A stretch of 64,000 bases of DNA from Bradyrhizobium sp. CCBAU 53421 (GTDB lineage: Bacteria; Pseudomonadota; Alphaproteobacteria; Rhizobiales; Xanthobacteraceae). Below the pieces are notes generated by a model, which saw nothing but the letters and a program-made list of their open reading frames with translations, was not told the origin of the DNA and searched no databases. A program made the position numbers and the translations under genes. Below, in pieces: positions 27,493 to 46,282 of the stretch. The stretch lies in the NCBI RefSeq assembly GCF_015291625.1, contig NZ_CP030047.1, positions 6,944,001-7,008,000 on the forward strand, in the 5' to 3' direction. Numbering within the stretch: the stretch's first letter is position 1; the number at the start of each line of letters is the position of its first letter.

Positions 27493-27609
27493 GTCAAATC
27501 CATCGTTATTGCGCAAGTTCGATCGCCCGGAGACAAGCATCCCAGGTCGATCGCGGGCCGCCGGCGCCCCCCGACGCACGCGGCCAGCGCTCTCATTACA
27601 GTCTCGCAA

Positions 27610-28919: not shown

Positions 28920-29545
28920 TGTAATCTCCGTGGAATCGATGTTGCCGTTCATCGCCTGCGCGGCCGGCGAAATCAATGAAATGGAAATTCAAAATTGCCG
29001 CTGCTACGGAACATGGCTCCTTCGGTCACAATGATAAGAGAACGGAACCGGCGACGGACCTGCCTCGGCAGTCCACCACGGACGGAGATCGCGGGGAAGG
29101 ACCTTTCCTTGCTGCGCTCGATGAGGAAATGACCCCGCTGCCGCCAGCCATCGAGACAGGTCGCCGATTGCAAAGTTGCGGTCGTGGCAGATATTCGCAC
29201 GCGGCCGAAGAAAAGCCATGCTATCTTTAACGCGTGTCGCATGCGCAGGAGGTTTGAAGCGGATGGCTTCTTCCTGGTTTACCAAACTTGGCCGGATCAC
29301 CCGGCGCCTGCAGCGTTGGCAACGAAGACTGGCGCGCGCCGCGACGTCTGACGGCCAGGACAACCTTCACGAGATATTCCTGTTCGGGCCGCACGGCTGA
29401 TCGACGGCCGCTTCCTCGCTAGGTCGGTTCGAACGCCGCGCAGCGGAAACATGCGACGGCCTCATTGAGGCTGCGCTTCAACTTGCGTCCAGATGCCATC
29501 CCTGATGCCGCGCGTCGCGCGGCCAACTGATCGGTGGGCAACAGC
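28920..29545. other. Intergenic stretch upstream of MetQ-like and FAD genes
   Basis: Divergent promoter region for the minus-strand MetQ-like gene and the plus-strand FAD-binding gene. Apart from the possible small frame at 29263-29400 no gene or clear operator is visible. Confidence 0.4.
29263..29400 (+). CDS. Possible small basic protein
   Basis: 45 codons from the ATG at 29263 (MASSWFTKLGRITRRLQRWQ), with AGGAGG ten bases upstream. The product is strongly basic and amphipathic in its first half (RITRRLQRWQRRLARAA) and ends HEIFLFGPHG. No family is recognised. The good Shine-Dalgarno is the main reason to list it; it could be spurious. Confidence 0.3.
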   Translation: MASSWFTKLGRITRRLQRWQRRLARAATSDGQDNLHEIFLFGPHG

Positions 29546-30943
29546 ATGGCGAGTTCCGGCGGCCGTCACGTCATCATCATCGGCGGAGGCGCCAGCGGCG
29601 TGTTGCTGGCTTATCAGGTACTGCAACAGCCGACGGGGACGCTTCGCGTCACGCTGGTGGAGCAGCGGCCGGAGATCGGCCGCGGCATTGCCTATCATAC
29701 CGGAAATCCCGATCACCTGCTGAATGTGCGCGTCGCGAACATGAGCGCGCTGCCCGACCAGCCGGATCACTTCTGGCGTTGGCTGGCCTCGCGTGAGCTC
29801 GACGCTCCGCTCTGCCCCGATCCCTACTGCTTCGTGCCCCGGCGGATTTACGGCGACTACATCGCCAGCCTGCTCGAGCAGCGCACATCCGATCCGGCGG
29901 ACGTGGAGCGGCTGTCGATCGTACGTGGTACGTGCGTCGACATCCACGAGCACCCGGCCGGTGTGTCGGTGATCCTGGGCGACGGCCAGTCGCTGCTCGG
30001 CGATGCCGTCGTTCTGGCAACCGGGCATGACATGCGGGCCAGCCGTTCGGGCTACGCCGATCCGTGGGCCCCGCCATCGGCCGCGCCGATTGATCCGGAC
30101 GCCGCGGTCCTCCTCCTCGGCACGGGACTGACGATGGCGGACTACGTGCTGTCGCTGCTTCGCGACGGACACCGTGGACCGGTCATCGCGATGTCGCGGC
30201 GCGGCCTGCTGGCGAAGGCGCATCGTCGCGTCGACGCCCAGCGCATCGAAGCCGCTGACGTTCCATTCGGCACCGGCATCACCGAGTTGCTTCGCTGGCT
30301 TCGCGCCCGCATTGAGCGCAACGCGGCCGATGGCGGCGACTGGCGCAGCGTGATCGACGGCCTGCGGCCCTATACCCAGCGGCTGTGGCAGGAGCTGCCG
30401 CAAGCCTCCAAGCGCCGCTTTCTCGAGCACGCACGCGCCTGGTGGGACGTGCATCGGCATCGGATGGCGCCGGAAGTCGAAGCCCGCATCACGCAGGCGA
30501 TCTACGCAGGGCAACTCACCCTGATGGCGGCCAAGGTGATCAGCGTCGCATCGGACGACGATGGGGCGCTGATCAACTATCGCAGGCGCGGCGATACGCG
30601 GATCCTCAACATGCGGGTCGGCGCCGTCGTCGATTGCACCGGCATTGTCAAGGATCCACGCGCGACGCCCAATCCGGCGGTGCGCAGGTTGTTCGAGCGC
30701 GGCCTCGCCCGCGTCGACCCGCTCTGCATCGGGATCGAGACGACCCCGGACTGCGCGATCGTTAACCGGGACGGCACGACCTCGCGGCGCCTGTTTGCGG
30801 TCGGCCCGCTCACGCGCGCCGCGTTCTGGGAGATCGTCGCCATTCCCGACATCCGCCACCAATGCGTCGCCCTCGCCGTCCTGCTCGCCGACACCGTTGG
30901 CGAGGAGCAGGTCGAGCGGCGCTATGAGCCCATCGGAGTCTAG
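29546..30943 (+). CDS. FAD/NAD(P)-binding protein (NAD_binding_9 type oxidoreductase)
   Basis: 465 residues from the ATG at 29546; a GTG at 29534 is also in frame. N-terminal dinucleotide fold HVIIIGGGASGVLLAYQVL, then GRGIAYHTGNPDHLLNVRVANMSAL in sections, which is the mark of the NAD_binding_9 (HpyO-like) family. A second nucleotide fold is at AVLLLGTGLTMADYVLSLL, and the C-terminal part has VVDCTGIVKDPRATPNP and LFAVGPLTRAAFWEIVAIPD. These proteins resemble flavin monooxygenases; the substrate is unknown. Its place between two MetQ-like genes suggests sulfur metabolism. The stop TAG lies in a palindromic repeat. Confidence 0.88.
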   Translation: MASSGGRHVIIIGGGASGVLLAYQVLQQPTGTLRVTLVEQRPEIGRGIAYHTGNPDHLLNVRVANMSALPDQPDHFWRWLASRELDAPLCPDPYCFVPRRIYGDYIASLLEQRTSDPADVERLSIVRGTCVDIHEHPAGVSVILGDGQSLLGDAVVLATGHDMRASRSGYADPWAPPSAAPIDPDAAVLLLGTGLTMADYVLSLLRDGHRGPVIAMSRRGLLAKAHRRVDAQRIEAADVPFGTGITELLRWLRARIERNAADGGDWRSVIDGLRPYTQRLWQELPQASKRRFLEHARAWWDVHRHRMAPEVEARITQAIYAGQLTLMAAKVISVASDDDGALINYRRRGDTRILNMRVGAVVDCTGIVKDPRATPNPAVRRLFERGLARVDPLCIGIETTPDCAIVNRDGTTSRRLFAVGPLTRAAFWEIVAIPDIRHQCVALAVLLADTVGEEQVERRYEPIGV

Positions 30944-30985: not shown

Positions 30986-31783
30986 CTAACTGCTGAAGCC
31001 GGCCGGAATGAACGCCGGTATCTTCTGCTCGATGAACTGCTTGACCTCGGGCGAATTGAAGACCTGGATGAAGGCCTTCAGGCGCGGATCGTCCTTCTTG
31101 TCCGGCCGTGCCGTGAAGCGCAGCACCAGGCCGTCATCGACCGTGCGGTCGATCACCAGCGCCGACTTGGGGTCACCGCCCGCGGGTATCAGATAGGTGA
31201 TGTTGACGAGCGCGAGGGTGACATCGTCGAGCGAGCGGTAGGTCTGCGCCGGATCGAGCTCGACGATCCTGAGGTTCTTCGGGTTGTCGATGATATCGAA
31301 CCGGCTCACCGAAAAGCCCTTGCCGGGTGCCAGCTTGATCAGCCCGGCACGCTCGAGCAGGATCAGCCCGCGCGCGCCGTTCAGCGGCTCGTTCGGGATC
31401 GCGACGCTGTCTCCGGACTTGATCTCGTCAAGCGACTTGATCTTCCTGGAGAACAATCCGACCGGCGCGATCACGCCGACCTTGTCGACCTGAACGAGGT
31501 TGAAGCCGCGCTGCTTGTTCTGCAGTGCGAGGTAGGTCGCATGCTGGAACAGATTGGCATCGACGTCGCCGCTGTTGACCACCTCGTTCAACGCGACCCA
31601 GTCCGACAGCTCGACGATCTTGACGTCCTGCCCCTTGTCTTTGGCGAGTTTGGCCGCGAACGCCGCCAACTGTCCGACCGGCCCGGCGCTGGTCGCGATC
31701 TTCAATGGTTCGCCGGCCCAGGCAGAGCCGGCCAAAGCCACAGCCAGACCTACGGCCTGCGCCAGGCGAAAGAGAGTTTTCAT
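30986..31783 (-). CDS. MetQ/NlpA family ABC transporter substrate-binding protein
   Basis: 265 residues from the ATG at 31783; the ATG at 31789 is equally possible. Signal peptide MKTLFRLAQAVGLAVALAGS, cleavage at AWAGEP, again without a lipobox Cys. Family motifs: LKIATSAGPVGQLAAFAAKL, DANLFQHATYLALQNKQRGF, VAIPNEPLNGARGLILLERAG and RSLDDVTLALVNITYLIPAG. It is a paralog of the protein at 28137, so two binding proteins of different specificity may share one MetNI. It lies 32 bp downstream of the sulfhydrylase gene on the same strand and is probably in its operon. Confidence 0.92.
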   Translation of the reverse strand: MKTLFRLAQAVGLAVALAGSAWAGEPLKIATSAGPVGQLAAFAAKLAKDKGQDVKIVELSDWVALNEVVNSGDVDANLFQHATYLALQNKQRGFNLVQVDKVGVIAPVGLFSRKIKSLDEIKSGDSVAIPNEPLNGARGLILLERAGLIKLAPGKGFSVSRFDIIDNPKNLRIVELDPAQTYRSLDDVTLALVNITYLIPAGGDPKSALVIDRTVDDGLVLRFTARPDKKDDPRLKAFIQVFNSPEVKQFIEQKIPAFIPAGFSS

Positions 31784-31815
31784 TGTCATCCATCCGTTTC
31801 TTGTTGAAGCCTTGA

Positions 31816-33141
31816 TCACGCCGCCTTGCGCGCACTGCCGCCAGCTTCCGCCTGCGCGAGCGCCTGGGTAAGATCGGCGAGGATGTCGTCGGGATGCTCG
31901 ATCCCGACCGAAAGCCGGACGTAGCCGGGTGTGACGCCGGCTGCGAGCTGCTCGGCGGCCGAGAGCTGCTGGTGAGTGGTCGACGCCGGGTGGATCGCCA
32001 GCGATCGGGCGTCACCGATATTGGCGACGTGATAGAACAGCTTCAGCGCGTCGATGAAGCGGCGCCCCGCTTCGACGCCGCCTTGCAACTCGAAGCCGAC
32101 CAGCGCGCCATAGCCGCCCTTCAGATAGGCGTCCGCACGGCGGCGGTTCTCGCCGCTCTGCAAGCCCGGGAAGATCACATGGGAGACGGCCGGATGCCCG
32201 GCCAGGAAATCCGCGACCTTGATCGCATTCTCATTGTGCTGGCGCAGCCGCAGCGGCAGCGTCTCGAGTCCCTGGATGAACTGGAAGGCGTTCTGCGGCG
32301 CGATCGCGGCGCCGAGATCGCGCAGCAGCTTCACCCGGGCGCGCAGGATGTAGGCGATCGGGCCGAGCGGCTTTGCGGCCTCGGTCCAGATCGCGCCGTG
32401 ATAGGCGTCGTCCGGCCGGGTCAGCAGCGGAAACCGGTCCGCATGCGCCGCCCAGTCGAAATTGCCGCCGTCGATGATCGCGCCGCCGATCGAGGTGCCG
32501 TGGCCGCCGATATACTTCGTCGTGGAGTAGACCACGATCGCGGCGCCATGCTCGAACGGGCGCGCGATGATCGGCGTTGCCGTATTGTCGAGGATGAGCG
32601 GGACGCCCAGCGAACGGCCGATATCCGCGACCTCCCTGATCGGAAACACGTTGAGCTTGGGGTTCGGCAGGGTCTCGGCGAAATAGGCGCGGGTCCTGGC
32701 GTCGGTGGCGCGCCAGAAATTCTCCGGATCGGCCGGATCGACGAAGCGGACCTCGATGCCGAACTGCTTCAGCGTCTGCGACAGCAAGGTCCAGGTGCCC
32801 CCGTAGAGATCGGTCGAGGAGACGATATTGTCGCCGGCCTGTGCGATATTGAAGATCGCGAACGCCGAAGCGGTCTGGCCGGACGCGACGGCAAGCGCCC
32901 CGACTCCGCCCTCCAGCGCCGCCAGCCGCTCCTCGAATGCGTCAGCCGTCGGGTTCTTGATCCTGGTGTAGATCTGCCCGATCGCCTCCAGCGCGAACAG
33001 GCGCGAGGCATGATCGGTGTTCTCGAACTGAAATGACGTCGTCTGATAGATCGGAACGGCCACCGCCCCGGTTGCCGGATCCGACCGGTAGGAACCCCCA
33101 TGCAAGGCTAGCGTCTCGACATTCTTGGTTTCGACCGGCAT
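31816..33141 (-). CDS. O-acetylhomoserine sulfhydrylase-type PLP enzyme
   Basis: 441 residues, Cys/Met metabolism PLP family (fold type I). Landmarks: HGGSYRSDPATGAVAVPIYQ, YTRIKNPTADAFEERLAALE, PLP-stacking segment SSTDLYGGTWTLL, Asp185 in PLILDNTATP, and the PLP-binding Lys209 in YSTTKYIGGHG. Length and the long central insertion fit O-acetylhomoserine aminocarboxypropyltransferase (MetY), which makes homocysteine from O-acetylhomoserine and sulfide; cystathionine-gamma-synthase-type proteins are shorter. It would let sulfide released from organosulfur compounds enter methionine. Upstream GGAG (ctgcaggagacatcgagATG) supports the start. Confidence 0.92.
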   Translation of the reverse strand: MPVETKNVETLALHGGSYRSDPATGAVAVPIYQTTSFQFENTDHASRLFALEAIGQIYTRIKNPTADAFEERLAALEGGVGALAVASGQTASAFAIFNIAQAGDNIVSSTDLYGGTWTLLSQTLKQFGIEVRFVDPADPENFWRATDARTRAYFAETLPNPKLNVFPIREVADIGRSLGVPLILDNTATPIIARPFEHGAAIVVYSTTKYIGGHGTSIGGAIIDGGNFDWAAHADRFPLLTRPDDAYHGAIWTEAAKPLGPIAYILRARVKLLRDLGAAIAPQNAFQFIQGLETLPLRLRQHNENAIKVADFLAGHPAVSHVIFPGLQSGENRRRADAYLKGGYGALVGFELQGGVEAGRRFIDALKLFYHVANIGDARSLAIHPASTTHQQLSAAEQLAAGVTPGYVRLSVGIEHPDDILADLTQALAQAEAGGSARKAA

Positions 33142-33533: not shown

Positions 33534-34937
33534 ATGGCGAGACCGAGAGAACTTCGTTTCAACGCGTTCAACATGATGGCGCCGAGCCACAACTGGGCGG
33601 GCCTCTGGTCGCATCCGCGCGATACCTCGCTCAACTACAATTCGCTGGATTACTGGGTCGACCATGCGCGGACCGCCGAGCGCGGCCTGCTCGACGGCAT
33701 CTTCCTCGCCGACGTCTTCGGCGTCTACGACGTCTATGGCAGCGGTCCGGATACGGCTCTGAGCCACGCCGTCCAGCTGCCCAACGCCGAGCCGACCTTG
33801 CTCGTCTCCGCCATGGCGCTGGTGACGAAGCATCTCGGCTTCGGCATCACCTCCAACCTAACCTTCGAGCATCCGTATCAGTTCGCCCGCCGGTTCTCGA
33901 CGCTCGATCACCTCACCGGCGGGCGGATCGGCTGGAACATCGTCACCGGTTATCTCGACAGCGGCGCGCGCGGGATGGGCCTCGATGCGAACCGCGCGCA
34001 TGACGACCGCTACGAGGCGGCCGAGGAGTTTCTCGCCGCGACCTATAAACTGTGGGAAGGCAGTTGGAAGGATGACGCGGTTCGACGCGACCGATCATCT
34101 CGCATTTTCACCGACCCTGCCAAAATCCATCGCATCCGGCACGAGGGCCGCCATTACAAGGTGGACGGCATCCATCTCGCCGAGCCCTCTCCACAACGCA
34201 CGCCGCTGCTTTACCAGGCCGGAACCTCGAAGCGCGGCCGCGCCTTCGCCGCAAGACATGCGGAGGCGATCTTCCTCAACGGCCAGACCAGGCCGATCCT
34301 CGCCCGTACCGTTCGCGACATCCGCGATGCTGCCAAGGAGTTCGGTCGCGATCCCTACGATATTCGCCTGTTTGCCGGCGCGACGGTGATCGTGGCGCCG
34401 ACCCGCGCGGAAGCCAACGACTTGCTGACTGAATATGCCGCACACGTTGATCAGGCCGGCCAACTCGCCCTGCTCTCCGGCTGGACCGGCATCGATTTCT
34501 CGACCTATCGACCGGATCAGGCGGTGCAATATGTCGAGAGCAACGCGATCCAGTCGATGGTCGAGAATTTCACGTTGCGCAGCGATCGCCCCGTCCGCGT
34601 CGGCGATCTTGCAACGCTCAGCCGCGTCGGTGCGCGCTCGCCCTTCGTGGTCGGCTCGCCCCAGGATGTCGCGGACGAGCTGATTGCCTGGGCGGATGAA
34701 ACCGACGTCGATGGCTTCAACCTGTTCCGCCTCGTCGCGCCGGAATCGCTGAACGCTTTCGTCGATCTCGTGGTGCCTGAACTGCAATCACGCGGTGTCT
34801 ACAAGACGGCCTATGCCGAAGGCACGCTGCGGGAGAAGCTGTTTCCGGGACGCGGGGCCCGCCTGCATGTCACGCATCCCGGCGCCGGCTACCGCCACGC
34901 GGCCTCCGCTGCGGTTCGTCCCGACGCCGCTGAGTAA
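33534..34937 (+). CDS. LLM class flavin monooxygenase (NtaA/SnaA/DszA family)
   Basis: 467 residues, the typical size of the NtaA/SnaA/DszA subfamily of FMNH2-dependent monooxygenases. Family motifs: RFNAFNMMAPSHNWAGLW, LLDGIFLADVFGVYDVYGSG, the FMN region LTGGRIGWNIVTGYLDS and RYEAAEEFLAATYKLWEGSW, and LLYQAGTSKRGRAFAARHAE. These enzymes need a partner flavin reductase (one is encoded at 45710) and oxidise sulfides, sulfones or amines next to a heteroatom. It converges on metI with a 12-bp gap. Confidence 0.92.
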   Translation: MARPRELRFNAFNMMAPSHNWAGLWSHPRDTSLNYNSLDYWVDHARTAERGLLDGIFLADVFGVYDVYGSGPDTALSHAVQLPNAEPTLLVSAMALVTKHLGFGITSNLTFEHPYQFARRFSTLDHLTGGRIGWNIVTGYLDSGARGMGLDANRAHDDRYEAAEEFLAATYKLWEGSWKDDAVRRDRSSRIFTDPAKIHRIRHEGRHYKVDGIHLAEPSPQRTPLLYQAGTSKRGRAFAARHAEAIFLNGQTRPILARTVRDIRDAAKEFGRDPYDIRLFAGATVIVAPTRAEANDLLTEYAAHVDQAGQLALLSGWTGIDFSTYRPDQAVQYVESNAIQSMVENFTLRSDRPVRVGDLATLSRVGARSPFVVGSPQDVADELIAWADETDVDGFNLFRLVAPESLNAFVDLVVPELQSRGVYKTAYAEGTLREKLFPGRGARLHVTHPGAGYRHAASAAVRPDAAE

Positions 34938-34949
34938 CGAAGCCCCGTT

Positions 34950-35615
34950 TCAGCGGTGACGCAGGCGGCGATTGACGCGGCGGGCGAGATAATCGCCCGC
35001 GGTCTGGACCGTCTGCACCAGCGCGATCAGCACGACAACGACAGCCAGCATCATCTCCGGCATGAAGCGCTGGTAGCCGTAACGGATGCCGAGATCGCCG
35101 AGGCCTCCGCCGCCGACGGCGCCGACCATCGCGGAATAACCGAGCAAGCTGACGATCGCGAGCGTCAAGGCGAGCAGCAGTCCGGGCAAGGCTTCCGGGA
35201 TCAGCACCTTGAAGACGATCTGCAGCGGGCTGGCGCCGAATGAGGACGCGGTCTCGATCAATCCGGCGTCGACTTCGCGTATCGCCGCCTCCACCAGGCG
35301 GGCGATGAAGGGCGTTGCCGCGATGGTCAGCGGCACGATCGCAGCGCCCGAGCCGATCGAGGTGCCGGCAATCAGTCGCGTGAACGGGATGATGGCCACG
35401 ACCAGGATGATGAACGGCGTCGAGCGGGCCGCATTGACGATCACGGCGAGCACGCCATTGACGGCGGGCGCCGCGAACAGCTCACCCTTGCGGCTGGTTG
35501 CCAGGAACACGCCGAGCGGAAGCCCGAACAGGGTCGCGACCAGGGCGGCGACCGACACCATGAACAGGCTTTCGCCGGTGGCCTGGATGATCAGATTGAT
35601 GAGCTCACGCGACAT
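34950..35615 (-). CDS. metI: Methionine-type ABC transporter permease MetI
   Basis: 221 residues with five or six membrane helices. MetI features: N-terminal GESLFMVSVAALVATLFGLP, and the EAA loop ASSFGASPLQIVFKVLIPEALPG that contacts MetN, followed by LLALTLAIVSLLGYSAMVG and GGGGLGDLGIRYGYQRF. Its start lies 11 bases inside the end of metN, so the two are translationally coupled. The complete importer would use one or both MetQ-like proteins encoded at 28.1 and 31.0 kb. Confidence 0.95.
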   Translation of the reverse strand: MSRELINLIIQATGESLFMVSVAALVATLFGLPLGVFLATSRKGELFAAPAVNGVLAVIVNAARSTPFIILVVAIIPFTRLIAGTSIGSGAAIVPLTIAATPFIARLVEAAIREVDAGLIETASSFGASPLQIVFKVLIPEALPGLLLALTLAIVSLLGYSAMVGAVGGGGLGDLGIRYGYQRFMPEMMLAVVVVLIALVQTVQTAGDYLARRVNRRLRHR

Positions 35616-36729
35616 AGCCGAGGCGCTCCACGCGGAATGTGTTGTGTGAAAGATAGGCGGCGGCCTGCTTGGCCGCGGCTTCGCCGCCGGGAATTCCTAT
35701 CGTCAGCGAGCCGACATGCTGGCCGCCGATCTCGTCGATGCGGGCCGACAGCAGCGCCACATCGATCCCGAGCTCGCGCGCGAGCCGCGCCAGGATCGTG
35801 TCGCCGGCGCCGGCACCGCGCACCTGTATGCGGATGACGGCCTGCCCGCCCGCAACGGGCTGTCGCAGCAGGCGGCTGGTCAGCGACACCGGGAGGCTGT
35901 CGCCGACGGCCTCCGACAGGAAGGCCTGCGTGACCGGATGCCTCGGATGCGTGAAGATGTCGGCAACATGGCCGCGTTCGACGATCTGGCCGCCGTCGAC
36001 CACCACGATTTCCCTGGCGAGCTGGCGGACCACCGACATCTCGTGGGTGATCAACACGATCGTGACGCCGAGCTCGCGATTGATGCTTGCCAACAGATCC
36101 AGGATCGCCCGCATGGTCTGCGGATCGAGCGCCGAGGTCGCCTCGTCGGACAACAGGACGTTCGGACGGGTCGCGAGCGCGCGGGCGATGCCGATGCGCT
36201 GCTTCTGGCCGCCGGACAGCTCGGACGGATACCGATCGAACTTGTCGGCGATGCCGACCAGCTCGAGCAACTCCGCCACCCGGACCGCAATGTCGGCCTT
36301 CGACCAGCCGGCGATCTCCAGCGGCAGCGCGATGTTATCAGCGGCGGTGCGCGACGACAGCAGGTTGAAATGCTGGAAGATCATGCCGATCGAGCGCTGT
36401 GCCAGGCGCAGCTCCCGGCCGGCGAGCGCGGAGATGTCGCGGCCATCGACGACGACACGTCCCGTCGACGGCTTCTCCAGGCCGTTGATGAGCCGCACCA
36501 GGCTCGATTTGCCGGCGCCGGAGCGGCCGATCACACCGGTGATCGAGCCACGCGGGATCGCGAAATCGATATCCTGCAGCGCGCGTACGCTCGGCTTGTC
36601 ACGGTAGGCGGGATAGATCTTCGAGACCGTCTCGAACCGCACCATGGCGTCGCTCGCGGCGGGCTGCGGCACCGGCGACGGATGCGGTTCGACGGGCCGC
36701 GCCGTCGTCAGGGATTGATGCACGTTCAT
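35605..36729 (-). CDS. metN: Methionine-type ABC transporter ATP-binding protein MetN
   Basis: 374 residues from the ATG at 36729. Walker A GRSGAGKSS, signature LSGGQKQRIGIARAL, Walker B VLLSDEATSALD, and H-loop LITHEMSVV. The C-terminal 90 residues (VIRIQVRGAGAGDTILARLA to the end) are the NIL regulatory domain, which in E. coli MetN binds methionine and inhibits transport. An N-terminal 28-residue Pro-rich extension precedes the usual start; an in-frame Met (AMVRFETV) could be the true start. It lies 50 bp after the ferredoxin gene in the same operon. Confidence 0.94.
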   Translation of the reverse strand: MNVHQSLTTARPVEPHPSPVPQPAASDAMVRFETVSKIYPAYRDKPSVRALQDIDFAIPRGSITGVIGRSGAGKSSLVRLINGLEKPSTGRVVVDGRDISALAGRELRLAQRSIGMIFQHFNLLSSRTAADNIALPLEIAGWSKADIAVRVAELLELVGIADKFDRYPSELSGGQKQRIGIARALATRPNVLLSDEATSALDPQTMRAILDLLASINRELGVTIVLITHEMSVVRQLAREIVVVDGGQIVERGHVADIFTHPRHPVTQAFLSEAVGDSLPVSLTSRLLRQPVAGGQAVIRIQVRGAGAGDTILARLARELGIDVALLSARIDEIGGQHVGSLTIGIPGGEAAAKQAAAYLSHNTFRVERLGYVA

Positions 36730-36779
36730 CCAGTTGGTCCAATTGGCAATGCTTCGGTCGGTCCGGGATCGCCCGGAAC

Positions 36780-37100
36780 TCAATGACCAAAGAGCAGGTA
36801 GCTGCGGTCGACGGCGCGGCGGTCCCGCGTGTCGTCGGTCCAGCCGACGGCGCGGCGGTAGCTCCCCATCGCATTGGTCTGCTTGAGGGCGATCACGTCG
36901 ATCGCCTGCGCGTCGTCCGCGAACGGAGAGACATAGAGCGCATCCTCGGGACAGTAAAGCTCGCAAAGGAAGCAGGTCTGGCAATCGCTCTGCCGGGCGA
37001 TGACCGGAATTCCGTCCGTCTTGTCGAAAACGTTGGTCGGGCACACATTCACGCAGATGTCGCAGGACGTGCAGCGCTCGGCGTCGATGACCTCGATCAT
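36780..37100 (-). CDS. Two-[4Fe-4S] ferredoxin, AprB-like
   Basis: 106 residues. Two perfect 4Fe-4S motifs: Cys10, 13, 16, 20 (CTSCDICVNVCP) and Cys40, 43, 46, 50 (CQTCFLCELYCP). A 55-residue tail (AIDVIALKQTNAMGSYRRAV and on) follows, as in the beta subunit of adenylylsulfate reductase, where the tail wraps the alpha subunit. The start overlaps the flavoprotein stop by 4 nt. It almost certainly delivers electrons to or from that flavoprotein. AprB is longer (about 150), so this is a relative and not AprB itself. Confidence 0.9.
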   Translation of the reverse strand: MIEVIDAERCTSCDICVNVCPTNVFDKTDGIPVIARQSDCQTCFLCELYCPEDALYVSPFADDAQAIDVIALKQTNAMGSYRRAVGWTDDTRDRRAVDRSYLLFGH

Positions 37101-38725
37101 TCCGCGGCCTCCGCAAACGACGCCTCGGCATGCGGCCGGATATCGGTCCAGACCTCGTCAAGGCCGCCGGTCGTCACGTAGTGGCGCTGCCGCTCGTCCT
37201 GATCGGGGAAATCGTCGCGGCGATGCATGCCGCGGCTTTCCTGGCGGTCAAGCGCGCTGCGATACATCCACCGCGCGGTCGCGAGCATCGCCGCGCTTTC
37301 GCGGGCGCGCAGGATATCGGCCTTGCCGGCGGCGTCTGCATCGGACGCGTCGCGCCAGGCTGCGTCGAGACGCGCCAGCGACCCTTGCAGCCGTGTCGCT
37401 TCACGGAAGTAGTTCAGCTCGTATGGAAATACTTCGGCCTGGACGTCCTTCGCCAGCGCGGCCGGCTCGAATGCACGTTGGGAGCGGCTGCGGAAAGCGA
37501 TGGTTCCGGCGGATGACAATTGTCGCCGGGCCGGCGCGGCAAGCTGGCTGGCATAGGTTGCGGCACCCTGCCCGGCCCAGGTCCCCGACGAGATCGCCCA
37601 GGCCGCATTGTGGCTCCCGCCACCGGTGAAGCCGCCACAGATCAATTCGCGCGTGGCCGCATCGCCGGCGGCATAGAGGCCCGCGACGCTGGTCGCACAG
37701 CTGTCGTCGACGATGCGCAGGCCGCCGGTGCCACGCACCGTGCCCTCCAGGCGCAAGGTGATCGGAAAGCGATCCGTGAACGGGTCGATCCCGGTCCGGT
37801 CGAACGGCAGGAAGAAGTTCGGCTGCGACGCGCGCATGTGACGCTGCACGTCATCGTCGGCCTTGTCGAGCCGCGCATAGACCGGGCCCCGCAGCAGCGC
37901 GCGGGCGATCGCCGACCGGCCGCCCTTCGACGCCGCGCCCGGGACGACGCTGCCGTCCTCGTGGCTGAAGGTCGCCCAACCGAAGAACAGCGTCTTGGTC
38001 ACCGAGCCGAAGGCCGCGGATATCGCGTAAGGGTTGGAAAACTCCATGCTGCTGAAATCGGCACCGGCCTCGGCGGCCATCAGATACCCGTCGCCGGTCA
38101 GCACGTTCGAGCCCAGCGTCTTGCTCAGGAACGCGCATCCGCCGGTCGCGATCACCACGGCCTTGGCGCGCACGATCCAGCGGTCATGCTTTTGCCGGCG
38201 CACGCCGCTGGCGCCGGCGACCGCACCGTCGCCATCCACCAGCAGCTCCAGGGCCGGGCTGTGATCGAGGATGGTGACGCCCGCCTGCTTGGTGCGCTTG
38301 CGCATCAGCCGCATGTATTCCGGTCCTTGCAGCGAATTGCGCTGCGACCTGCCGCGATCGTCGACGGGATAGGGATAGCCCCAATCCGCGAGCCGGTTGC
38401 TCTGCTGATAGGTCCGGTCGAGGACGCGCGCCATCCAGCGGCGATCCTGCAAATGGCCGCCCAGCTTCTCGCGGTTGGCCATCGCGGCCTCGCGCTGTGC
38501 CGGATCCGGATCGACGTACCAGACGCCGGTGCCGGCCGCGGCCGTCGCGCCCGACGTGCCGCAGAATCCCTTGTCGGCCAACACCACGCGCGCCCCGCGT
38601 TCCGCCGCGCTGACCGCAGCCCAGGTGCCTGCCGGCCCGCCGCCGAGCACCAGCACGTCGGCATCGAACTCGACGGATCCGGTCGGCGCGAATACGCGCT
38701 CCGCGCGATGGGCTTTGCTCGTCAT
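37097..38725 (-). CDS. FAD-dependent oxidoreductase, AprA/fumarate reductase flavoprotein-like
   Basis: 542 residues from the ATG at 38725. FAD fold VLVLGGGPAGTWAAVSAAER, then DKGFCGTSGATAAAGTGVWY, mid-segment VIATGGCAFLSKTLGSNVLT, and the FAD-closing GLYAAGDAATRELICGGFTG then GGSHNAAWAISSGTWAGQGA. This is the succinate dehydrogenase/fumarate reductase/AprA superfamily, with a helical C-domain. Coupling to a dicluster ferredoxin copies the AprBA layout. Position at the head of an operon with metN and metI links it to sulfur use, but no known substrate can be named. Sulfate-reducer AprA is longer (over 600). Confidence 0.88.
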   Translation of the reverse strand: MTSKAHRAERVFAPTGSVEFDADVLVLGGGPAGTWAAVSAAERGARVVLADKGFCGTSGATAAAGTGVWYVDPDPAQREAAMANREKLGGHLQDRRWMARVLDRTYQQSNRLADWGYPYPVDDRGRSQRNSLQGPEYMRLMRKRTKQAGVTILDHSPALELLVDGDGAVAGASGVRRQKHDRWIVRAKAVVIATGGCAFLSKTLGSNVLTGDGYLMAAEAGADFSSMEFSNPYAISAAFGSVTKTLFFGWATFSHEDGSVVPGAASKGGRSAIARALLRGPVYARLDKADDDVQRHMRASQPNFFLPFDRTGIDPFTDRFPITLRLEGTVRGTGGLRIVDDSCATSVAGLYAAGDAATRELICGGFTGGGSHNAAWAISSGTWAGQGAATYASQLAAPARRQLSSAGTIAFRSRSQRAFEPAALAKDVQAEVFPYELNYFREATRLQGSLARLDAAWRDASDADAAGKADILRARESAAMLATARWMYRSALDRQESRGMHRRDDFPDQDERQRHYVTTGGLDEVWTDIRPHAEASFAEAAE

Positions 38726-39044: not shown

Positions 39045-40385
39045 ATGTCGCAACGTCAGCTTCATCTCAACGTCAATCTGCTGCACTCGGGCGTCTATGC
39101 GTCGGCCTGGCGGCTGCCGGAAAGCGATCCGCGCGCCTGCTTTGACGTCGGGCACTACGTTCGGGTGGCGAAGATCGCCGAGCGCGGCAAGCTTGATGCG
39201 ATCTTCCTGGCCGATACGCCGGCGATCACGGACCGGATCGACTATCGCTCATTCATGTCGATGGAGCCGACCATCGTGCTGGCGACCGTCGCCGCCGCGA
39301 CCAGCCATATCGGGTTGATCGCAACGGCGTCGACGACCTACAACGAGCCCTACAACATCGCGCGCCGCTTCGCGACGCTGGATTTGGCGAGCGGCGGCCG
39401 GGCCGGCTGGAATGCCGTCACCACGGCGGACGCCGCCGCCAGCCGCAATTTCGGCCTATCCAGCGTGCTCGAGCACAAGGCGCGCTACGAGCGCGCCAAG
39501 GAATTCGCCGAGGTCGTGCACGCATTGTGGGACAGCTGGGAAGACAACGCCTTCATCGGCGACAAGGCGACCGCACGATTCGTCGACACCTCGAAAGTGC
39601 ATCCGATCGCGCATCGCGGTTCGCATTACACGGTCGCCGGACCGCTCAATGTTCCGCGTTCGCCGCAAGGGCGTCCCGTGACCGTGCAGGCCGGCGGATC
39701 AAGCGATGGCCGCGATCTCGCAGCCGCGCAGGCCGAGGCGGTGTTCACGCTTGCGCAGAACATCGATGAGGGTGTCGCCTACGCGCGCGATCTGCGTGCT
39801 CGCGCCACGGCCTACCGCCGCGCTGGCGACTCCATCGTCATCCTGCCGGGGCTTGCAACCGTGATCGGAAGCACTGAGGCCGAAGCCAGGCGGCGGCAGG
39901 ATGATCTCTGGGAGCTGGTCCCAATCGAATACAGCCTCGCTCGCCTTGCCAGCACGCTGCAAGTCGACCCGGAGATCCTCGCACTCGACGCGCCCCTGCC
40001 CGATCCGTTGCCGCTGCCGGCCAATGCGAACCACACCATGTTCCAGGGCACGGTGAATCTCGCCCGCCGCGGCAATCTCACGGTCCGTCAGCTGCTGCGT
40101 GCGCTTGGCGGCGGCGTCGGGCACCGGATCATCGTCGGCACGCCCGAGCAGATCGCTGACGACATCGAGGCCTGGTTCAGAGCCGGCGCAGCCGACGGAT
40201 TCAACCTGATGCCGGACGTCTTGCCGACGGGGCTCGAGGTCTTCGTCGACACGGTGGTGCCGATCCTGCAGCGCCGCGGCCTGTTCCGCAGCGACTATGC
40301 CGGGACCACGCTGCGCGATCATCTCGGCCTGCCGCGACCGGCCAGCCGCTTTGCGCGGCAGGCGACGGCCGCAGCGGGCGCCTGA
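39045..40385 (+). CDS. LLM class flavin monooxygenase (NtaA/SnaA/DszA family)
   Basis: 446 residues from the ATG at 39045 (MSQRQLHLNVNLLHSGVYAS). Family motifs: LDAIFLADTPAITDRIDYRS, LIATASTTYNEPYNIARRFA, LDLASGGRAGWNAVTTADAA, and ALWDSWEDNAFIGDKATARF. It is a close paralog of the gene at 53761: both share HALWDSWED- or TRLWDSWED-type segments, GPLNVPRSPQGRPV/GPLNISRPPQGRPV, and an end RRGLFRSDYAGTTLRDHLGL. It likely oxidises a sulfonate, sulfone or dialkyl sulfide using FMNH2. Confidence 0.92.
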   Translation: MSQRQLHLNVNLLHSGVYASAWRLPESDPRACFDVGHYVRVAKIAERGKLDAIFLADTPAITDRIDYRSFMSMEPTIVLATVAAATSHIGLIATASTTYNEPYNIARRFATLDLASGGRAGWNAVTTADAAASRNFGLSSVLEHKARYERAKEFAEVVHALWDSWEDNAFIGDKATARFVDTSKVHPIAHRGSHYTVAGPLNVPRSPQGRPVTVQAGGSSDGRDLAAAQAEAVFTLAQNIDEGVAYARDLRARATAYRRAGDSIVILPGLATVIGSTEAEARRRQDDLWELVPIEYSLARLASTLQVDPEILALDAPLPDPLPLPANANHTMFQGTVNLARRGNLTVRQLLRALGGGVGHRIIVGTPEQIADDIEAWFRAGAADGFNLMPDVLPTGLEVFVDTVVPILQRRGLFRSDYAGTTLRDHLGLPRPASRFARQATAAAGA

Positions 40386-40390
40386 TCTCG

Positions 40391-41479
40391 TCAGCGCCCG
40401 CTAGCCGACAATGGCGGCTTTTCGCCGACCGCAGACGCGGCGCGCGCGCGCGGGATGACCTCTCTGGCGAAACGCTCCATCTCTGCCTCGAACGGCTGGA
40501 ACTGCAGCATGAACAGTTCGATGCCCGCGGCATGGAACGCCTTGATCCGGTCCGCCACCGCGTCGTAGCTGCCGACGAGGCCGGCCGCGGTACCGCCATT
40601 GCTGCCGACCCGCGCCGATTTCTGCATCGTCTGCATCATCACAACCTTCGGATCGGTGTTCTGTTTCTGGATCGCCTTGATCGGCGCGTCCTTCCTTGAC
40701 AGCTCAAGCAACCGCTCATAGGCGGCCTCGGCTTCAGCCTGTGTCTCGCGCGCGATCACGAAGGCCGACAGACCAAAGCGAAGCGGTGCCGACGCCCGCG
40801 GCCGGGCCGCGACATCGGCAATCAGGCCGGCGACATCCTCCAGCGGCTGCCCATTGATGAACCAGACGTCGCCGTGATCCGCGACCAATGCGCGCGCAGG
40901 TTCGGATTCGCCGCCGACATAGATCAGCGGCCGGTCGCGATAGAGGCTGGTCGGCCGCAGCAGATAGTCGCGCACGTCGAAATGCTCGCCCTTGTAGGTC
41001 AACCGCTCGCCCTGCATCAGCCGCGACACCACCGTGATCCATTCACGGCCATAAGCATAGCGGGCGTCATGCTCGGCGAAACCGATCCCCGCCCTGTCGA
41101 GCTCGGGCCGGTTCCAGGCGTTGACGAGGTTGATGGCAAAGCGGCCGCGGCTGATGTTCTCGATTCCGAGCGCCAGCTTGGCGAGCACGACCGGATGATA
41201 GAGATAGGGCTTGATGGCGGCGATGATCTCGATCTTGCCGGTCAGCGCCGCAATCGCAGCCGCCGCGCTCCAGGCCTCGAGCTGGTCGAGGTCTTCCTGA
41301 TGCGGGTTGATCGTGTGCTGCGCGATCAGCGTCGAGTCGTAGCCGAGCGCTTCGGCCGCAAGCACGAGATCGCGGTTGCGTTCCCATGACGCATCATAAG
41401 GCTCTTCCGGATCCTGATAGGCGGCGCGCGAGCCGTGCACCAACGCCCAGATGCCGAAGCGGAGCGGTCGTGTCGTCAT
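40391..41479 (-). CDS. LLM class flavin monooxygenase, SfnG/SsuD-like
   Basis: 362 residues from the ATG at 41479 (MTTRPLRFGIWALVHGSRAA). The pattern DSTLIAQHTINPHQEDLDQL, KIEIIAAIKPYLYHPVVLAK, SRGRFAINLVNAWNRPELDR and EHDARYAYGREWITVVSRLM matches FMNH2-dependent enzymes of the dimethylsulfone (SfnG) and alkanesulfonate (SsuD) group. These split the carbon-sulfur bond to give sulfite or sulfinate. It converges with the LLM gene at 39045 and is divergent from the ABC transporter operon at 41790. Confidence 0.9.
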   Translation of the reverse strand: MTTRPLRFGIWALVHGSRAAYQDPEEPYDASWERNRDLVLAAEALGYDSTLIAQHTINPHQEDLDQLEAWSAAAAIAALTGKIEIIAAIKPYLYHPVVLAKLALGIENISRGRFAINLVNAWNRPELDRAGIGFAEHDARYAYGREWITVVSRLMQGERLTYKGEHFDVRDYLLRPTSLYRDRPLIYVGGESEPARALVADHGDVWFINGQPLEDVAGLIADVAARPRASAPLRFGLSAFVIARETQAEAEAAYERLLELSRKDAPIKAIQKQNTDPKVVMMQTMQKSARVGSNGGTAAGLVGSYDAVADRIKAFHAAGIELFMLQFQPFEAEMERFAREVIPRARAASAVGEKPPLSASGR

Positions 41480-41718
41480 TGCGATCTCCAACATTCTCTA
41501 CGTCACGTGTGAGCTGTTTCACGCCAAGTGCGGCGCGATAGCAAGCAACGGCGCATCAAAAGATTTTCCTTGTCGCGCCGCGCACGCGGATAAACCAGAA
41601 AACTCCGGAACCAACGACAATTGGAAAACCGCTCTATTTCTGTTGGCTGAAAATCGTGGGAGAGTTTGTAGCGTCTGAACGACGCTTACATTCACGAGAG
41701 CGGCGCGATGCCGATCGC

Positions 41719-41789: not shown

Positions 41790-42656
41790 TTGAGCAACCT
41801 CGAACAGGCCGCTGCATCGGTCGCATTTGATACTTCGCCGAATGACGACCGCACGGCCGCGCCCTCCCGAACCAGGCAGTTCGAGATCGGCCGACGCGGC
41901 CTGCAACTGCTGTCGTGGCTTGCGCCCGCGGTGATCGTCATCGTCTGGGAGTTGCTGTCGCAGGCCGGCTGGTTGTCGCCGCAAGTCTTGCCGGCGCCGA
42001 GCAAGGTCGTCAGGACCGCATTCAAGCTGATCAGCTCCGGAAGCCTGCTGAACGATCTCAGCGTCAGCCTGTTGCGCGCGGCGATCGGCTTTGCGATCGG
42101 CGGCAGCATCGGCTTCCTGCTCAGCATCCTTGTCGGCTTCTCGCGGATCGCCGAGGCAATGATCGATCGCAGCGTCCAGATGATCCGCGCTATCCCCTTC
42201 CTCGCGGGGGTGCCGCTCGTCATCGTCTGGCTGGGCGTCGGCGAGGCCGAGAAGATCTTCCTGGTCGCGCTCGGCGTCACCTTTCCGATCTACGTCAACA
42301 CCACGCTCGGAATCCGGCAGGTCGATCCGAAGCTGCTCGAGCTCGGCTGCGTCCAGGGCCTCGGCACGCTGGAGCTGATCCGGCGCATCGTCCTGCCGGG
42401 GGCGCTGCCGTCGATTCTGACCGGCGTGCGCTATGCGCTGGCCACCGCGTGGCTGGCGCTGGTGGTTGCCGAGACTATCGGCGCGCAATCCGGCATCGGC
42501 TTCCTGGCGATGGATGCGCGGGAATTCCTGCGCACTGACGTGATCGTGCTGACGATCGTCATCTATGCCCTGATCGGCGTCGCCGCCGACGGCATCGCGC
42601 GTTTCCTGGAGCGACGGCTGCTGGCCTGGCATCCGAACTATGGAGGCGCGCGATGA
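41790..42656 (+). CDS. Sulfonate-type ABC transporter permease (SsuC family)
   Basis: 288 residues from a TTG at 41790 with AGGACGG nearby; no ATG is in frame near the N-terminus. The BPD_transp_1 fold has about six helices, SKVVRTAFKLISSGSLLNDL, LGVGEAEKIFLVALGVTFPI and the EAA loop CVQGLGTLELIRRIVLPGAL, then ETIGAQSGIGFLAMDAREF. These mark the SsuC/TauC group of aliphatic sulfonate, taurine and nitrate permeases. It overlaps the ATP-binding gene by 4 nt and heads a six-gene operon ending with the serine acetyltransferase gene. Confidence 0.92.
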   Translation: MSNLEQAAASVAFDTSPNDDRTAAPSRTRQFEIGRRGLQLLSWLAPAVIVIVWELLSQAGWLSPQVLPAPSKVVRTAFKLISSGSLLNDLSVSLLRAAIGFAIGGSIGFLLSILVGFSRIAEAMIDRSVQMIRAIPFLAGVPLVIVWLGVGEAEKIFLVALGVTFPIYVNTTLGIRQVDPKLLELGCVQGLGTLELIRRIVLPGALPSILTGVRYALATAWLALVVAETIGAQSGIGFLAMDAREFLRTDVIVLTIVIYALIGVAADGIARFLERRLLAWHPNYGGAR

Positions 42657-43378
42657 CCTTGCACGTCGTGCCGTCTTCGACCGCGACGTCACCTGCCGTG
42701 GTGGTGACCAACCTGCGCCGCGCCTACGGCGAACGCGTCGTGATCGAGAGCCTCAATCTGCGCATCGAGCGCGGCGAGTTCGTCGCACTGCTTGGCGAGA
42801 GCGGCTGCGGCAAGACCACGCTGCTTCGGGCGCTGGCCGGCCTCGACCCGATCGACGGCGGGCGCATCGCGGCGCCGCGCCGCCCCGCGGTCGTGTTCCA
42901 GGAGCATCGGCTGCTGCCGTGGGACAGCCTGTGGCGCAACGTCTCGCTCGGCCTCAAAGCCGACGATCCACGCGGTCGCGCCGCGACGGCGCTGGCTGAA
43001 GTCGGCCTCGGCGACCGGCTCGACGACTGGCCGCGCAATCTCTCCGGTGGACAGGCGCAACGCGTCGCCCTGGCACGCGCGCTGGTGCAGGAGCCGGAAC
43101 TGTTGTTGCTTGACGAACCCTTTGCCGCACTCGATGCGCTGACCCGGATCCGCATGCACGAGCTGGTGCGCGACCTGGTGGCAACGCATCGGCCCGGCGT
43201 GCTCCTGGTCACTCATGATGTCGACGAGGCGATCGCGCTGGCCGACCGCATCCTGGTGATGCGCGAAGGCCGGATCGCCTTCCAGCATCGCACGAACGGT
43301 CGCGGCAGCGCATCGATTGCCCGCACCGAGCTACTGGCAGAGCTCGGCGTCGGTGCCGTTCACCCTATCCCCGCTTGA
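42653..43378 (+). CDS. Sulfonate-type ABC transporter ATP-binding protein (SsuB family)
   Basis: 241 residues. Walker A GESGCGKTTLLRALAGLDPI, Q-loop VFQEHRLLPWDSLWRNV, signature LSGGQAQRVALARALVQEPE, Walker B LLLDEPFAALDALTRIRM and H-loop VTHDVDEAIALADRI. The Q-loop EHRLLPW is typical for SsuB/TauB. It overlaps the permease stop by ATGA at 42653. Confidence 0.94.
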   Translation: MTLHVVPSSTATSPAVVVTNLRRAYGERVVIESLNLRIERGEFVALLGESGCGKTTLLRALAGLDPIDGGRIAAPRRPAVVFQEHRLLPWDSLWRNVSLGLKADDPRGRAATALAEVGLGDRLDDWPRNLSGGQAQRVALARALVQEPELLLLDEPFAALDALTRIRMHELVRDLVATHRPGVLLVTHDVDEAIALADRILVMREGRIAFQHRTNGRGSASIARTELLAELGVGAVHPIPA

Positions 43379-43398
43379 ATCTTCTGAAGGACCGCTTC

Positions 43399-44400
43399 AT
43401 GCCTCGCCCCATCGCAAAACCTTCCCGCCGTGGCTTCCTCGGCGGCGCCGCGTTCGGCATCGGTGCCCTCGCCGGCTTCAACCTTCCGGAGACAGCGCAA
43501 TCGGCCACCGGACGGGTCACCGATACCGTTCGTCTCACCTGGGGCCTCAGCGGCCTCAACCTGATCGCCAGGGAGCGCGGAGAGTTCGAGAAGCATCTCG
43601 CCAAGGACGGCATCAAGGTGGAATGGCTCGGTCCGTTTCCGAACCATGCCCCAACGCTGCAGGCCGTGACCGGCGGCAGCGCGGATTTCAGCTTCGGCGG
43701 CAGCACGACGCCGGCATTGGCCGCGATCATCGCCGGCTCGCCGCTCGTCTTCACGCAGTTCGTGGTCTACGAGCCCCGCACCACCGCGATCATCGCGCGG
43801 GATGATTCCGGCATCAACAAGGTCGAGGATCTCGTTGGCAAGTCGGTTGCGGTGAACCGCTCCGGCCTCGGCGAGTTCCTGCTGGTGGCCGCGCTTGAGA
43901 AGCACAAAATCGATCGCTCCGCGGTGAAGTTCGTCTACCTCAACCCGCCTGACGCAGCACCGGCCCTCGCCTCCGGCAAGGTCGATGCGTGGTCGATGTG
44001 GAGCCCCGGCGTCGACATCGCCCGGCTCGACTACAAGGCGCACGACATCTTCCTCGAGGGACGCGACCTGGATTTCCAGATCGACTACACGTCGTACCTG
44101 ACCACAAGGAAGTTCGCGACGGAGAACCCCGGGCTGGTGCGCGCCGTCAACGACGCCTTCCGCGCCGAGGGAAAATGGATTTCCGAGAACAGCAAGGACG
44201 CCGAGTACATCGCGCAGAAGGCCGGCAAGTACAGCGACCAGGTGCGCGACCAGTTCGTCGCGCTTGACCGGAAGTACCGCTACTTCCCGGTCAATGACGA
44301 GAAATTCCTGTCCGAGCTGCAAAAGGCCGCCGACTGGCTGGTCGCGCGCAAGGTGCTGCCCGAGCCGGTCAAGGTCACCGATCACCTCGCGCAACTCTGA
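43399..44400 (+). CDS. Sulfonate-type ABC substrate-binding protein with Tat signal
   Basis: 333 residues from the ATG at 43399, with GAAGGA upstream. The N-terminus has a twin-arginine signal (PSRRGFLGGAAFGIGALAGF), so it is exported folded, which is less common for ABC binding proteins. The mature part follows the NMT1/SsuA pattern: VRLTWGLSGLNLIARERGEF, TGGSADFSFGGSTTPALAAI, FVVYEPRTTAIIARDDSGI and SVAVNRSGLGEFLLVAALEK. It should bind an alkanesulfonate or related organosulfur compound. Confidence 0.92.
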   Translation: MPRPIAKPSRRGFLGGAAFGIGALAGFNLPETAQSATGRVTDTVRLTWGLSGLNLIARERGEFEKHLAKDGIKVEWLGPFPNHAPTLQAVTGGSADFSFGGSTTPALAAIIAGSPLVFTQFVVYEPRTTAIIARDDSGINKVEDLVGKSVAVNRSGLGEFLLVAALEKHKIDRSAVKFVYLNPPDAAPALASGKVDAWSMWSPGVDIARLDYKAHDIFLEGRDLDFQIDYTSYLTTRKFATENPGLVRAVNDAFRAEGKWISENSKDAEYIAQKAGKYSDQVRDQFVALDRKYRYFPVNDEKFLSELQKAADWLVARKVLPEPVKVTDHLAQL

Positions 44401-45709: not shown

Positions 45710-46282
45710 ATGAGCAAGCCGGACATCCACCTCGTCGATGCCGCGAACGAGATCGAACGCCAGTTTCGGCTGGTCATGCGCCGCCTCGCCGGCGGCGTCT
45801 GCATCATCACGGCCGGACAGGGCGAAGACATCACCGGCATGACGGTCACCTCCTTGACCTCGCTCAGCGCGGCGCCGCCCCGGCTGCTGGTCAGCATCAA
45901 CCGCCAGGCCTCGTCCTTTGCGCCGATCGCCCGTCACCGGCTGTTCGGCGTCAACATCCTGGGCTCCGACCAGCAGGCGCTGGCGGAGCGCTTCAGCAAT
46001 GGCCGCCTGAAAGGCCGCGAGCGCTTCGACGGCATCGCCTGGTCTCACGGTCCATCCGGCGTGCCGCTGCTCGAACGCTCGCTGGCGATGGTCGAATGCC
46101 AGGTCGAGGAGATCATCGAGCGGCATTCGCACGGCATCATCGTCGGCCGCCTTTCCAGCATGGAGCTCTCACACCGGCTGTCCGGCCTCACCTACTGGAA
46201 CGGACAGTATGTCCAGATCGATCACGAGGCCGACCTCGATCTTCTGGCCGAAGTCAGCATTCCCCTTGCACACGTCCGATAG
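45710..46282 (+). CDS. Flavin reductase family protein
   Basis: 190 residues. Flavin_Reduct-domain pattern: FRLVMRRLAGGVCIITAGQG, GMTVTSLTSLSAAPPRLLVS, INRQASSFAPIARHRLFGVN and the flavin-binding LAERFSNGRLKGRERFDGIA, then GQYVQIDH near the end. NADH-dependent reduction of FMN supplies FMNH2 to two-component monooxygenases. It starts 42 bp after the SfnB/DszC-like gene and could serve all LLM enzymes of this region. Confidence 0.93.
   Translation: MSKPDIHLVDAANEIERQFRLVMRRLAGGVCIITAGQGEDITGMTVTSLTSLSAAPPRLLVSINRQASSFAPIARHRLFGVNILGSDQQALAERFSNGRLKGRERFDGIAWSHGPSGVPLLERSLAMVECQVEEIIERHSHGIIVGRLSSMELSHRLSGLTYWNGQYVQIDHEADLDLLAEVSIPLAHVR

Follow-up and report, generated by a model that had tools for sequence, protein, structure and literature searches.

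Dissimilatory adenosine 5′-phosphosulfate (APS) reductase, AprBA, and the assimilatory AprBA-like 3′-phosphoadenosine 5′-phosphosulfate (PAPS) reductase of Methanothermococcus thermolithotrophicus (8a8o) are each built from a flavin adenine dinucleotide (FAD) subunit with the SdhA fold and a small subunit carrying two [4Fe-4S] clusters, which comprises ~100 aa in the methanogen enzyme. To our knowledge, the SdhA-fold enzymes that pair with a two-[4Fe-4S] ferredoxin subunit, namely AprBA and the methanogen PAPS reductase, have S(VI) substrates; the same fold is found in SdhA, FrdA and L-aspartate oxidase, whose partner is of the SdhB/FrdB type or absent. In ssu-, sfn- and dsz-type clusters, oxygenases release sulfite. 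MsuD is likewise an oxygenase that releases sulfite (PMC8234197), and the passages of PMC10708946 on the subject deal with Sox, Ssu and TauD only. Here we analyze a flavoprotein/ferredoxin gene pair of Bradyrhizobium sp. CCBAU 53421 that lies in a stretch of 64,000 nt (contig NZ_CP030047.1, positions 6,944,001 to 7,008,000, forward strand; hereafter the window) of a 9.26-Mb genome on one contig. The pair resembles AprBA and the methanogen PAPS reductase in fold, two-subunit make-up and two-[4Fe-4S] partner, and differs from both in its active site and its genomic neighborhood.

In the window, the genes for the flavoprotein, the ferredoxin and the ATP-binding cassette (ABC) transporter components metN and metI follow one another directly, all on the minus strand (Table 1), as a sequence-only reading of this DNA had stated. 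Specifically, the flavoprotein and ferredoxin genes overlap by 4 nt and have ATGA in common, a spacer of 50 nt separates the ferredoxin gene from metN, and metN overlaps metI by 11 nt; an alternative metN start, ATG 36645, is where the MetN match begins. A scan of the minus strand from the flavoprotein start to the metI end detects no terminator-like site, and the promoter and terminator scan returns 0 promoter-like sites and 2 terminator-like sites, where shuffles give 2.1. Gene families were assigned with Pfam and NCBIfam. We propose tentatively, and at somewhat less than an even chance, that the pair forms a flavo-iron-sulfur enzyme with AprBA wiring whose substrate is an anionic organosulfur compound brought into the cell, and that it frees sulfur from this compound, most likely by reduction. 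The analysis establishes the gene order, the 4-nt coupling, the predicted fold, the loss of the catalytic residues of AprA and SdhA, a set of invariant residues that includes several arginines, and the linkage to sulfonate-type importers.

The structural model of the flavoprotein (predicted local distance difference test score, pLDDT, 85.6; predicted template-modeling score, pTM, 0.89) is predicted to have the fold of SdhA, FrdA, AprA and L-aspartate oxidase. Its top Foldseek match is the PAPS reductase chain 8a8o_A (E 1e-26; template-modeling score, TM, 0.76), and it also matches AprA (1jnr/2fja), FrdA and L-aspartate oxidase. In contrast to the fold, the active site departs from that of AprA. 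The AprA His (GSH motif), Arg (ARFKDGYGP) and FAD-loop Trp (GRxWY), which we take to be catalytic, are present in 6/6 AprA sequences, whereas in the family of the flavoprotein the His column is Val (38/41) or Ile (3/41) and 41/41 rows are gapped at the Arg and Trp columns. The methanogen PAPS reductase, to which the flavoprotein is ~20% identical, differs in retaining the AprA catalytic residues, as stated in PMC10322725. The comparison with AprA indicates that the flavoprotein is not a plain APS reductase, and it bears out the earlier suspicion, from the sequence-only reading, of a reaction other than that of APS reductase.

The active site departs from that of complex II as well. The His/Glu/His/Arg set of SdhA and L-aspartate oxidase (NadB), presumably the catalytic and dicarboxylate-binding residues of complex II flavoproteins and L-aspartate oxidase, aligns with Tyr233, Lys244, Glu327 and Gly368 of the flavoprotein. 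Two positions that are His and Glu in the SdhA-like protein of the host genome and in NadB are Tyr and Lys in 6/6 AprA sequences, and in the family they are Tyr (40/41) and Lys or Arg (41/41). In addition, residues Arg142, Arg310, Arg331, Arg359, Glu360, Asn373 and Trp376 are invariant in 41/41 family rows, and a C-terminal R-x-E-x-R segment is kept. Such an invariant set would be apt for a substrate with negative charge, although some of its residues may serve FAD or the fold. In a phylogenetic tree with long branches, the six AprA sequences and the family (26 of the 41 rows used) form separate groups, with a Shimodaira–Hasegawa-like approximate likelihood ratio test (SH-aLRT) value of 99. 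Relative to one SdhA-like protein (L130, labeled by reading) and one NadB, the tree joins AprA and the family, a placement that rests on long branches and two outgroup rows and is not used for descent. The description of the pair as AprBA-like in the sequence-only reading therefore holds for fold and two-subunit make-up and fails for membership, since the family groups apart from AprA.

The ferredoxin has eight Cys residues that are invariant in 18/18 sequences, and is predicted to hold two [4Fe-4S] clusters and to assemble with the flavoprotein subunit. Unlike AprB, it lacks the APS-reductase_C domain, which was found neither in the ferredoxin nor anywhere in the host genome and is present in 41/398 of the genomes searched. 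Open frames with PF12139, the AprB C-terminal domain, are mostly ~140–190 aa long and have AprA adjoining. The chains 8a8o_C and AprB are among the weak matches of the ferredoxin model, in a fold search that does not tell AprB apart from dicluster ferredoxins of other kinds.

The pairing of the two subunits is widespread. A ferredoxin gene lies within 250 nt downstream of 91/102 homologous flavoprotein open reading frames (ORFs), and 70/91 pairs have the 4-nt overlap by the start rule used, which argues that the pairing is not due to chance. These 102 ORFs come from a database set of 91 loci, which comprises 80 named genome contigs (among the matches listed) and 11 plasmid records, and is redundant. 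Ten of the 11 flavoprotein ORFs that have no downstream ferredoxin are cyanobacterial, of which L063 is at a contig edge and L053 and L083 have an upstream ferredoxin; the eleventh, L094, is interrupted by an in-frame stop in its translated match. In two Nostocales loci (L058 and L061), such a flavoprotein stands beside a complete pair. Seven loci (L034, L035, L036, L037, L040, L152 and L159) contain two pairs per cluster, one 69–80% and the other ~46–49% identical to the pair of the window, which suggests two substrates.

Relatives occur in Alpha- and Betaproteobacteria, Nostocales, Paenibacillus and Actinomycetota, with genera that include Bradyrhizobium, Rhizobium, Azospirillum, Paracoccus, Cupriavidus, Paraburkholderia, Variovorax, Paenibacillus, Neobacillus, Nocardia and Pseudonocardia; the nearest named proteins are from Bradyrhizobium and are up to 91% identical. 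Presence in sampled genomes is patchy (13/198 in the family, 12/397 across the phylum), and 59/72,556 plasmid records carry the pair. Among 7,997 scored candidates, 4,531 proteins reach E ≤ 1e-20, a number that may include other flavoproteins, and 561/593 pattern-matched stretches, among the matches listed, encode a relative. In the records viewed, database annotation is only 'FAD-binding protein' together with 'ferredoxin family' or '4Fe-4S' protein.

The neighboring genes connect the pair with importers of the sulfonate type. In the database set, metN is the next gene in 9/91 pairs, all from Bradyrhizobium or Xanthobacteraceae (L026–L033 and L042), whereas an SsuA/Tau-type binding-protein or ABC gene is next in 44/91. 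The methionine-type importer noted in the sequence-only reading is thus present here as a local choice; likewise, of the four-gene unit, the flavoprotein/ferredoxin step recurs widely and the metN step does not. Because the database loci are redundant, we used a less biased set of 19 loci (17–20 kb), obtained from 21 pair-bearing sampled genomes by leaving out the genome of the window and one contig-edge fragment, and as controls 20 stretches of 20 kb from preset places in five of the pair-bearing genomes. An SsuA/TauA-type binding protein is encoded near the pair in 19/19 sampled loci and in 0/20 controls, which substantiates the proposed tie to the uptake of a sulfur compound. The corresponding sampled counts are 3 for luciferase-like monooxygenases (LLMs), 4 for SfnB, 6 for TauD, 1 for the sulfhydrylase and 2 for MetQ (0/20 controls each). 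In the database set, the binding protein is found in 78 of the 91 loci, LLM in 49, SfnB in 25, TauD in 21, MetQ in 18 and the sulfhydrylase in 15. Homologs of the PF13454 FAD/NAD(P)-binding protein of the window lie near the pair in 5/19 sampled loci and in 0/20 controls.

Individual loci show the same association. The closest solved relative of one pair-adjacent binding protein (L049) is SsuA 3uif (E 5e-36). In Azospirillum, Haematobacter, Paracoccus, Paenibacillus and Roseateles, the binding-protein gene lies directly after the pair, with permease gene(s) and an ATPase gene to one side or the other. Specifically, Azospirillum L107 has a pyridoxal 5′-phosphate (PLP)-dependent transferase that matches the sulfhydrylase, the pair, an NrtA/SsuA/CpmA-family binding protein, an ATPase, a permease, an amidohydrolase and an FAD/NAD(P)-binding protein, and a unit of this kind is equally plain in Haematobacter L108, Paracoccus L113, Paenibacillus L114, Roseateles L115, S. 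meliloti L111, R. etli L109 and Sphingobium L116. In S. meliloti L111 the binding protein is annotated as aliphatic sulfonate, and in Sphingobium L116 an LLM gene lies directly upstream of the pair, with a sulfatase and EpsC. In Nostoc L112 and Pseudonocardia L110, no binding protein comes directly after the pair, but LLM genes and genes for a sulfonate importer or TauD are close by. We read the pair as part of organosulfur uptake, with MetNI as an importer adopted in one lineage.

It is possible, if on the whole unlikely, that metNI is a recent and functionally loose neighbor, and that the substrate enters by the ssu-/tau-like importers of the cluster. The adjacency is seen only in Bradyrhizobium and Xanthobacteraceae, and SsuABC- and TauABC-like genes (labels by reading) lie within 12 kb in the window. 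Against a loose linkage stand the 50-nt gap, the common strand, the lack of a terminator-like site in the scan and the order kept in nine loci.

In the mechanism that we favor, the two [4Fe-4S] clusters of the small ferredoxin subunit would feed the FAD of the SdhA/AprA-fold subunit. The substrate would be an anionic organosulfur compound, most likely sulfonate-like, brought in by the co-encoded ABC importer, which would be of the SsuABC/TauABC type in most sampled loci and MetNI with MetQ1 or MetQ2 in the Bradyrhizobium window. Two electrons would go from the clusters to FAD; once reduced, the flavin would cleave an S–X bond and free sulfite, as AprBA frees sulfite from APS. The sulfur could then be reduced and fixed, plausibly by the neighboring O-acetylhomoserine sulfhydrylase, and the PF13454 protein is our guess for an electron donor or accessory. 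We infer the formation of a complex, the substrate class, the reductive direction and the sulfite product. That the pair acts on the imported compound is suggested by the importer, its most constant partner, and by the loci in which no oxygenase is detected: at the thresholds used, 9/19 sampled loci have no LLM, SfnB or TauD homolog, which may make the pair the unit's redox enzyme. Reductive cleavage is favored because the known SdhA-fold enzymes with a dicluster ferredoxin partner use S(VI) substrates, and because the several arginines that are invariant would suit an anionic group.

Several observations weigh against this mechanism. The analogy with AprBA rests on fold and wiring, since the residues for APS chemistry in AprA are not kept, and VIA-align puts FrdA ahead of 8a8o and AprA for the flavoprotein. 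The ferredoxin model is modest (pLDDT 76.7) and its fold search gives no match at E ≤ 0.001; moreover, the Trp of the AprB 'CWEC' motif is Gln in the ferredoxin. In the PAPS reductase, electrons are proposed to reach FAD by way of a Trp (PMC10322725), and the 'CWEC' Trp may correspond to it. On the genomic side, the next gene is unrecognized (within 400 nt) in 38/91 pairs, and none of the six sulfur classes occurs in 9/91 database loci or in 6/83 loci with an intact pair, among them L041, a Bradyrhizobium homolog that is 78% identical. The binding-protein profile was trained on seven pair-adjacent proteins, one of them from a genome in the test set (G004). Finally, an LLM, SfnB or TauD homolog lies near the pair in 10/19 sampled loci, and the pair could therefore serve oxygenases or SfnB.

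Oxidation, which the sequence-only reading had also allowed for and which SdhA and L-aspartate oxidase carry out, would fit the modeled fold equally well. In such a reaction, FAD would dehydrogenate the imported organosulfur compound, the product would lose sulfite or sulfinate, and the ferredoxin would remove the electrons. The kept R-x-E-x-R segment and the fold common to SdhA, FrdA and L-aspartate oxidase agree with it, as does the lifestyle of the named hosts, for the most part aerobes of soil and cyanobacteria. However, the SdhA/NadB His/Glu/His/Arg set is replaced, and the transfer of electrons from an aliphatic C–H bond to low-potential clusters would be uphill; we consider a dehydrogenase unlikely, at roughly one chance in four.

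Less probable still, with a chance of around one in eight, is a module that supplies electrons to flavin-dependent monooxygenases, SfnB-type enzymes or sulfite reductase and leaves the organosulfur compound alone. The LLM and SfnB genes in the redundant database set, and the fewer LLM, SfnB and TauD genes in the sampled set, speak for such a module. Yet the importer is the most constant partner, oxygenases of the searched types go undetected in nearly half of the sampled loci, SdhA-fold proteins are usually substrate enzymes, and the cluster itself includes a flavin-reductase-like gene (label by reading).

An enzyme whose substrate is methionine sulfoxide, methionine sulfone or something related, taken up through MetNI-MetQ, is improbable, at about one chance in ten. 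It would account for metN and metI directly downstream in 9/91 pairs, for the presence in the cluster of both MetQ proteins of the genome, for MetNIQ near the pair in R. etli L109, a locus that also has two SfnB and one LLM, and for the metI, metN and two metQ homologs near the pair in cyanobacterium L062. This last locus has an SsuA/TauA-type binding protein as well, and across both sets of loci that binding protein far outnumbers MetQ. A plain APS or PAPS reductase for assimilation, suggested by the top Foldseek match, is very improbable given the lost AprA His, Arg and Trp, the lack of APS-reductase_C in the genome and the PAPS_reduct-family genes in 17/17 of the pair-bearing genomes tested (of 21). 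Replacement of CysH by the pair is disfavored by the same 17/17 count; this argument is weak because the PAPS_reduct family includes both CysH and CysD and is present in all 14 control genomes (14/14).

The pair of the window belongs to an organosulfur-scavenging cluster of ~27 kb (window ~28–55 kb; Table 1), and the four genes taken as the unit in the sequence-only reading are too narrow a frame. As in ssu-, sfn-, msu- and dsz-type clusters, LLM monooxygenases, SfnB-like oxidoreductases and SsuABC/TauABC-like importers stand alongside; unlike the enzymes of those clusters, the pair is not of an oxygenase family. The pair is associated with organosulfur importers, whereas the methanogen PAPS reductase gene co-occurs with sulfate-activation genes. 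There are four LLMs in the cluster, the SfnG/SsuD-like enzyme and three of the NtaA/DmoA family, of which eight score above the cut-off genome-wide. The labels SsuABC, TauABC, TauD, flavin reductase and serine acetyltransferase (window 41.8–51.3 kb) were given by reading, without a family call. MetN with its NIL domain, MetI and NlpA-type MetQ are all present, with MetN below its equivalog cut-off, and methionine binding and transport by MetNI-MetQ is putative, from family membership. MetQ1 and MetQ2 are the only NlpA/MetQ (PF03180) proteins found genome-wide, so MetNI with MetQ1 and MetQ2 is the genome's only importer of the MetQ type with a binding protein. When five intergenic regions between divergent genes of the cluster were compared for a common regulatory motif (gapped dyads and k-mers), with no control set, only GC-rich matches in 3–4/5 regions came up.

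Table 1. Genes of the organosulfur cluster, in window positions (FMN, flavin mononucleotide)
Gene or product	Position	Strand	Remarks
MetQ/NlpA-type binding protein 1 (MetQ1)	28137..28952	-	start ATG 28952 or 28919
FAD/NAD(P)-binding protein (PF13454)	29534..30943	+	above no NCBIfam cut-off
MetQ/NlpA-type binding protein 2 (MetQ2)	30986..31819	-	family match
O-acetylhomoserine/O-acetylserine sulfhydrylase family enzyme, sulfide-fixing step	31816..33141	-	TIGR01326 above cut-off
NtaA/DmoA-family FMN monooxygenase	33534..34937	+	family match
metI, ABC permease	34950..35615	-	above MetI subfamily model cut-off
metN, ABC ATPase	35605..36729	-	ABC_tran and NIL domain; 379.6 bits, MetN equivalog cut-off 499.7
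Ferredoxin subunit, 2x[4Fe-4S] Fer4	36780..37100	-	106 aa; ATG 37100, stop 36780
SdhA/AprA-fold FAD flavoprotein subunit, own subfamily	37097..38725	-	542 aa; ATG 38725, stop 37097; FAD_binding_2 and Succ_DH_flav_C
NtaA/DmoA-family FMN monooxygenase	39045..40385	+	divergent from flavoprotein gene; start read from sequence
SfnG/SsuD-like FMN monooxygenase	40391..41494	-	below SfnG equivalog cut-off
SsuC-, SsuB-, SsuA-like ABC importer genes	41790..44400	+	labels by reading; homologs recur near pair
SfnB-type oxidoreductase	44438..45667	+	302 bits; below equivalog cut-off 430.9
Flavin-reductase-like gene	45710-46282		label by reading
NtaA/DmoA-family FMN monooxygenase	53761..55101	+	family match

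Further genes accompany the pair in some loci. A redoxin (AhpC-TSA) gene lies directly upstream of the flavoprotein in three loci of more distant homologs (L167:1649-2290, L164:10761-11354 and L111:7301-7885). In Azospirillum brasilense, an annotated family 2A encapsulin cargo cysteine desulfurase (L107:17765-19554) stands beside the operon of the pair. Amidohydrolase genes accompany the pair in Nostocales, where 12 loci have 20 such ORFs (for example L078:13508-15061), and, by annotation, in Azospirillum (L107:13733-15400), and the amidohydrolase is a possible second enzyme of the pathway. Beyond the cluster, the window contains apparently unrelated genes for an Mfd-type helicase (24292-27609), a Porin_2 porin (21901-23448) and NADH/Mrp-antiporter-type proteins (2651-7717).

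The architecture of the pair is already known, and the active site and importer linkage have no assignment that we found. In the open-licence literature, no title or abstract among the matches listed describes the pair or assigns it a function, and the main texts of PMC7661421 and PMC11852219 gave no match for the terms searched. A bolder version of our proposal, which we think rather unlikely, is that the pair represents a reductive desulfonase (or desulfatase) of a new, oxygen-independent class for sulfur assimilation by aerobes, in which low-potential electrons would pass by way of the two [4Fe-4S] clusters to the flavin for cleavage of a C–S, N–S or O–S bond of an imported compound with release of sulfite. 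If true, such a desulfonase would be an alternative to the O2-dependent route of SsuD, TauD and SfnG. The pair also illustrates how an AprBA-type architecture is re-used with a new active site, and an operon that combines enzyme and binding protein makes the substrate directly testable. If the pair acts on imported sulfonates, soil bacteria and cyanobacteria would have a second chemistry for acquiring sulfur, possibly one that works without oxygen.

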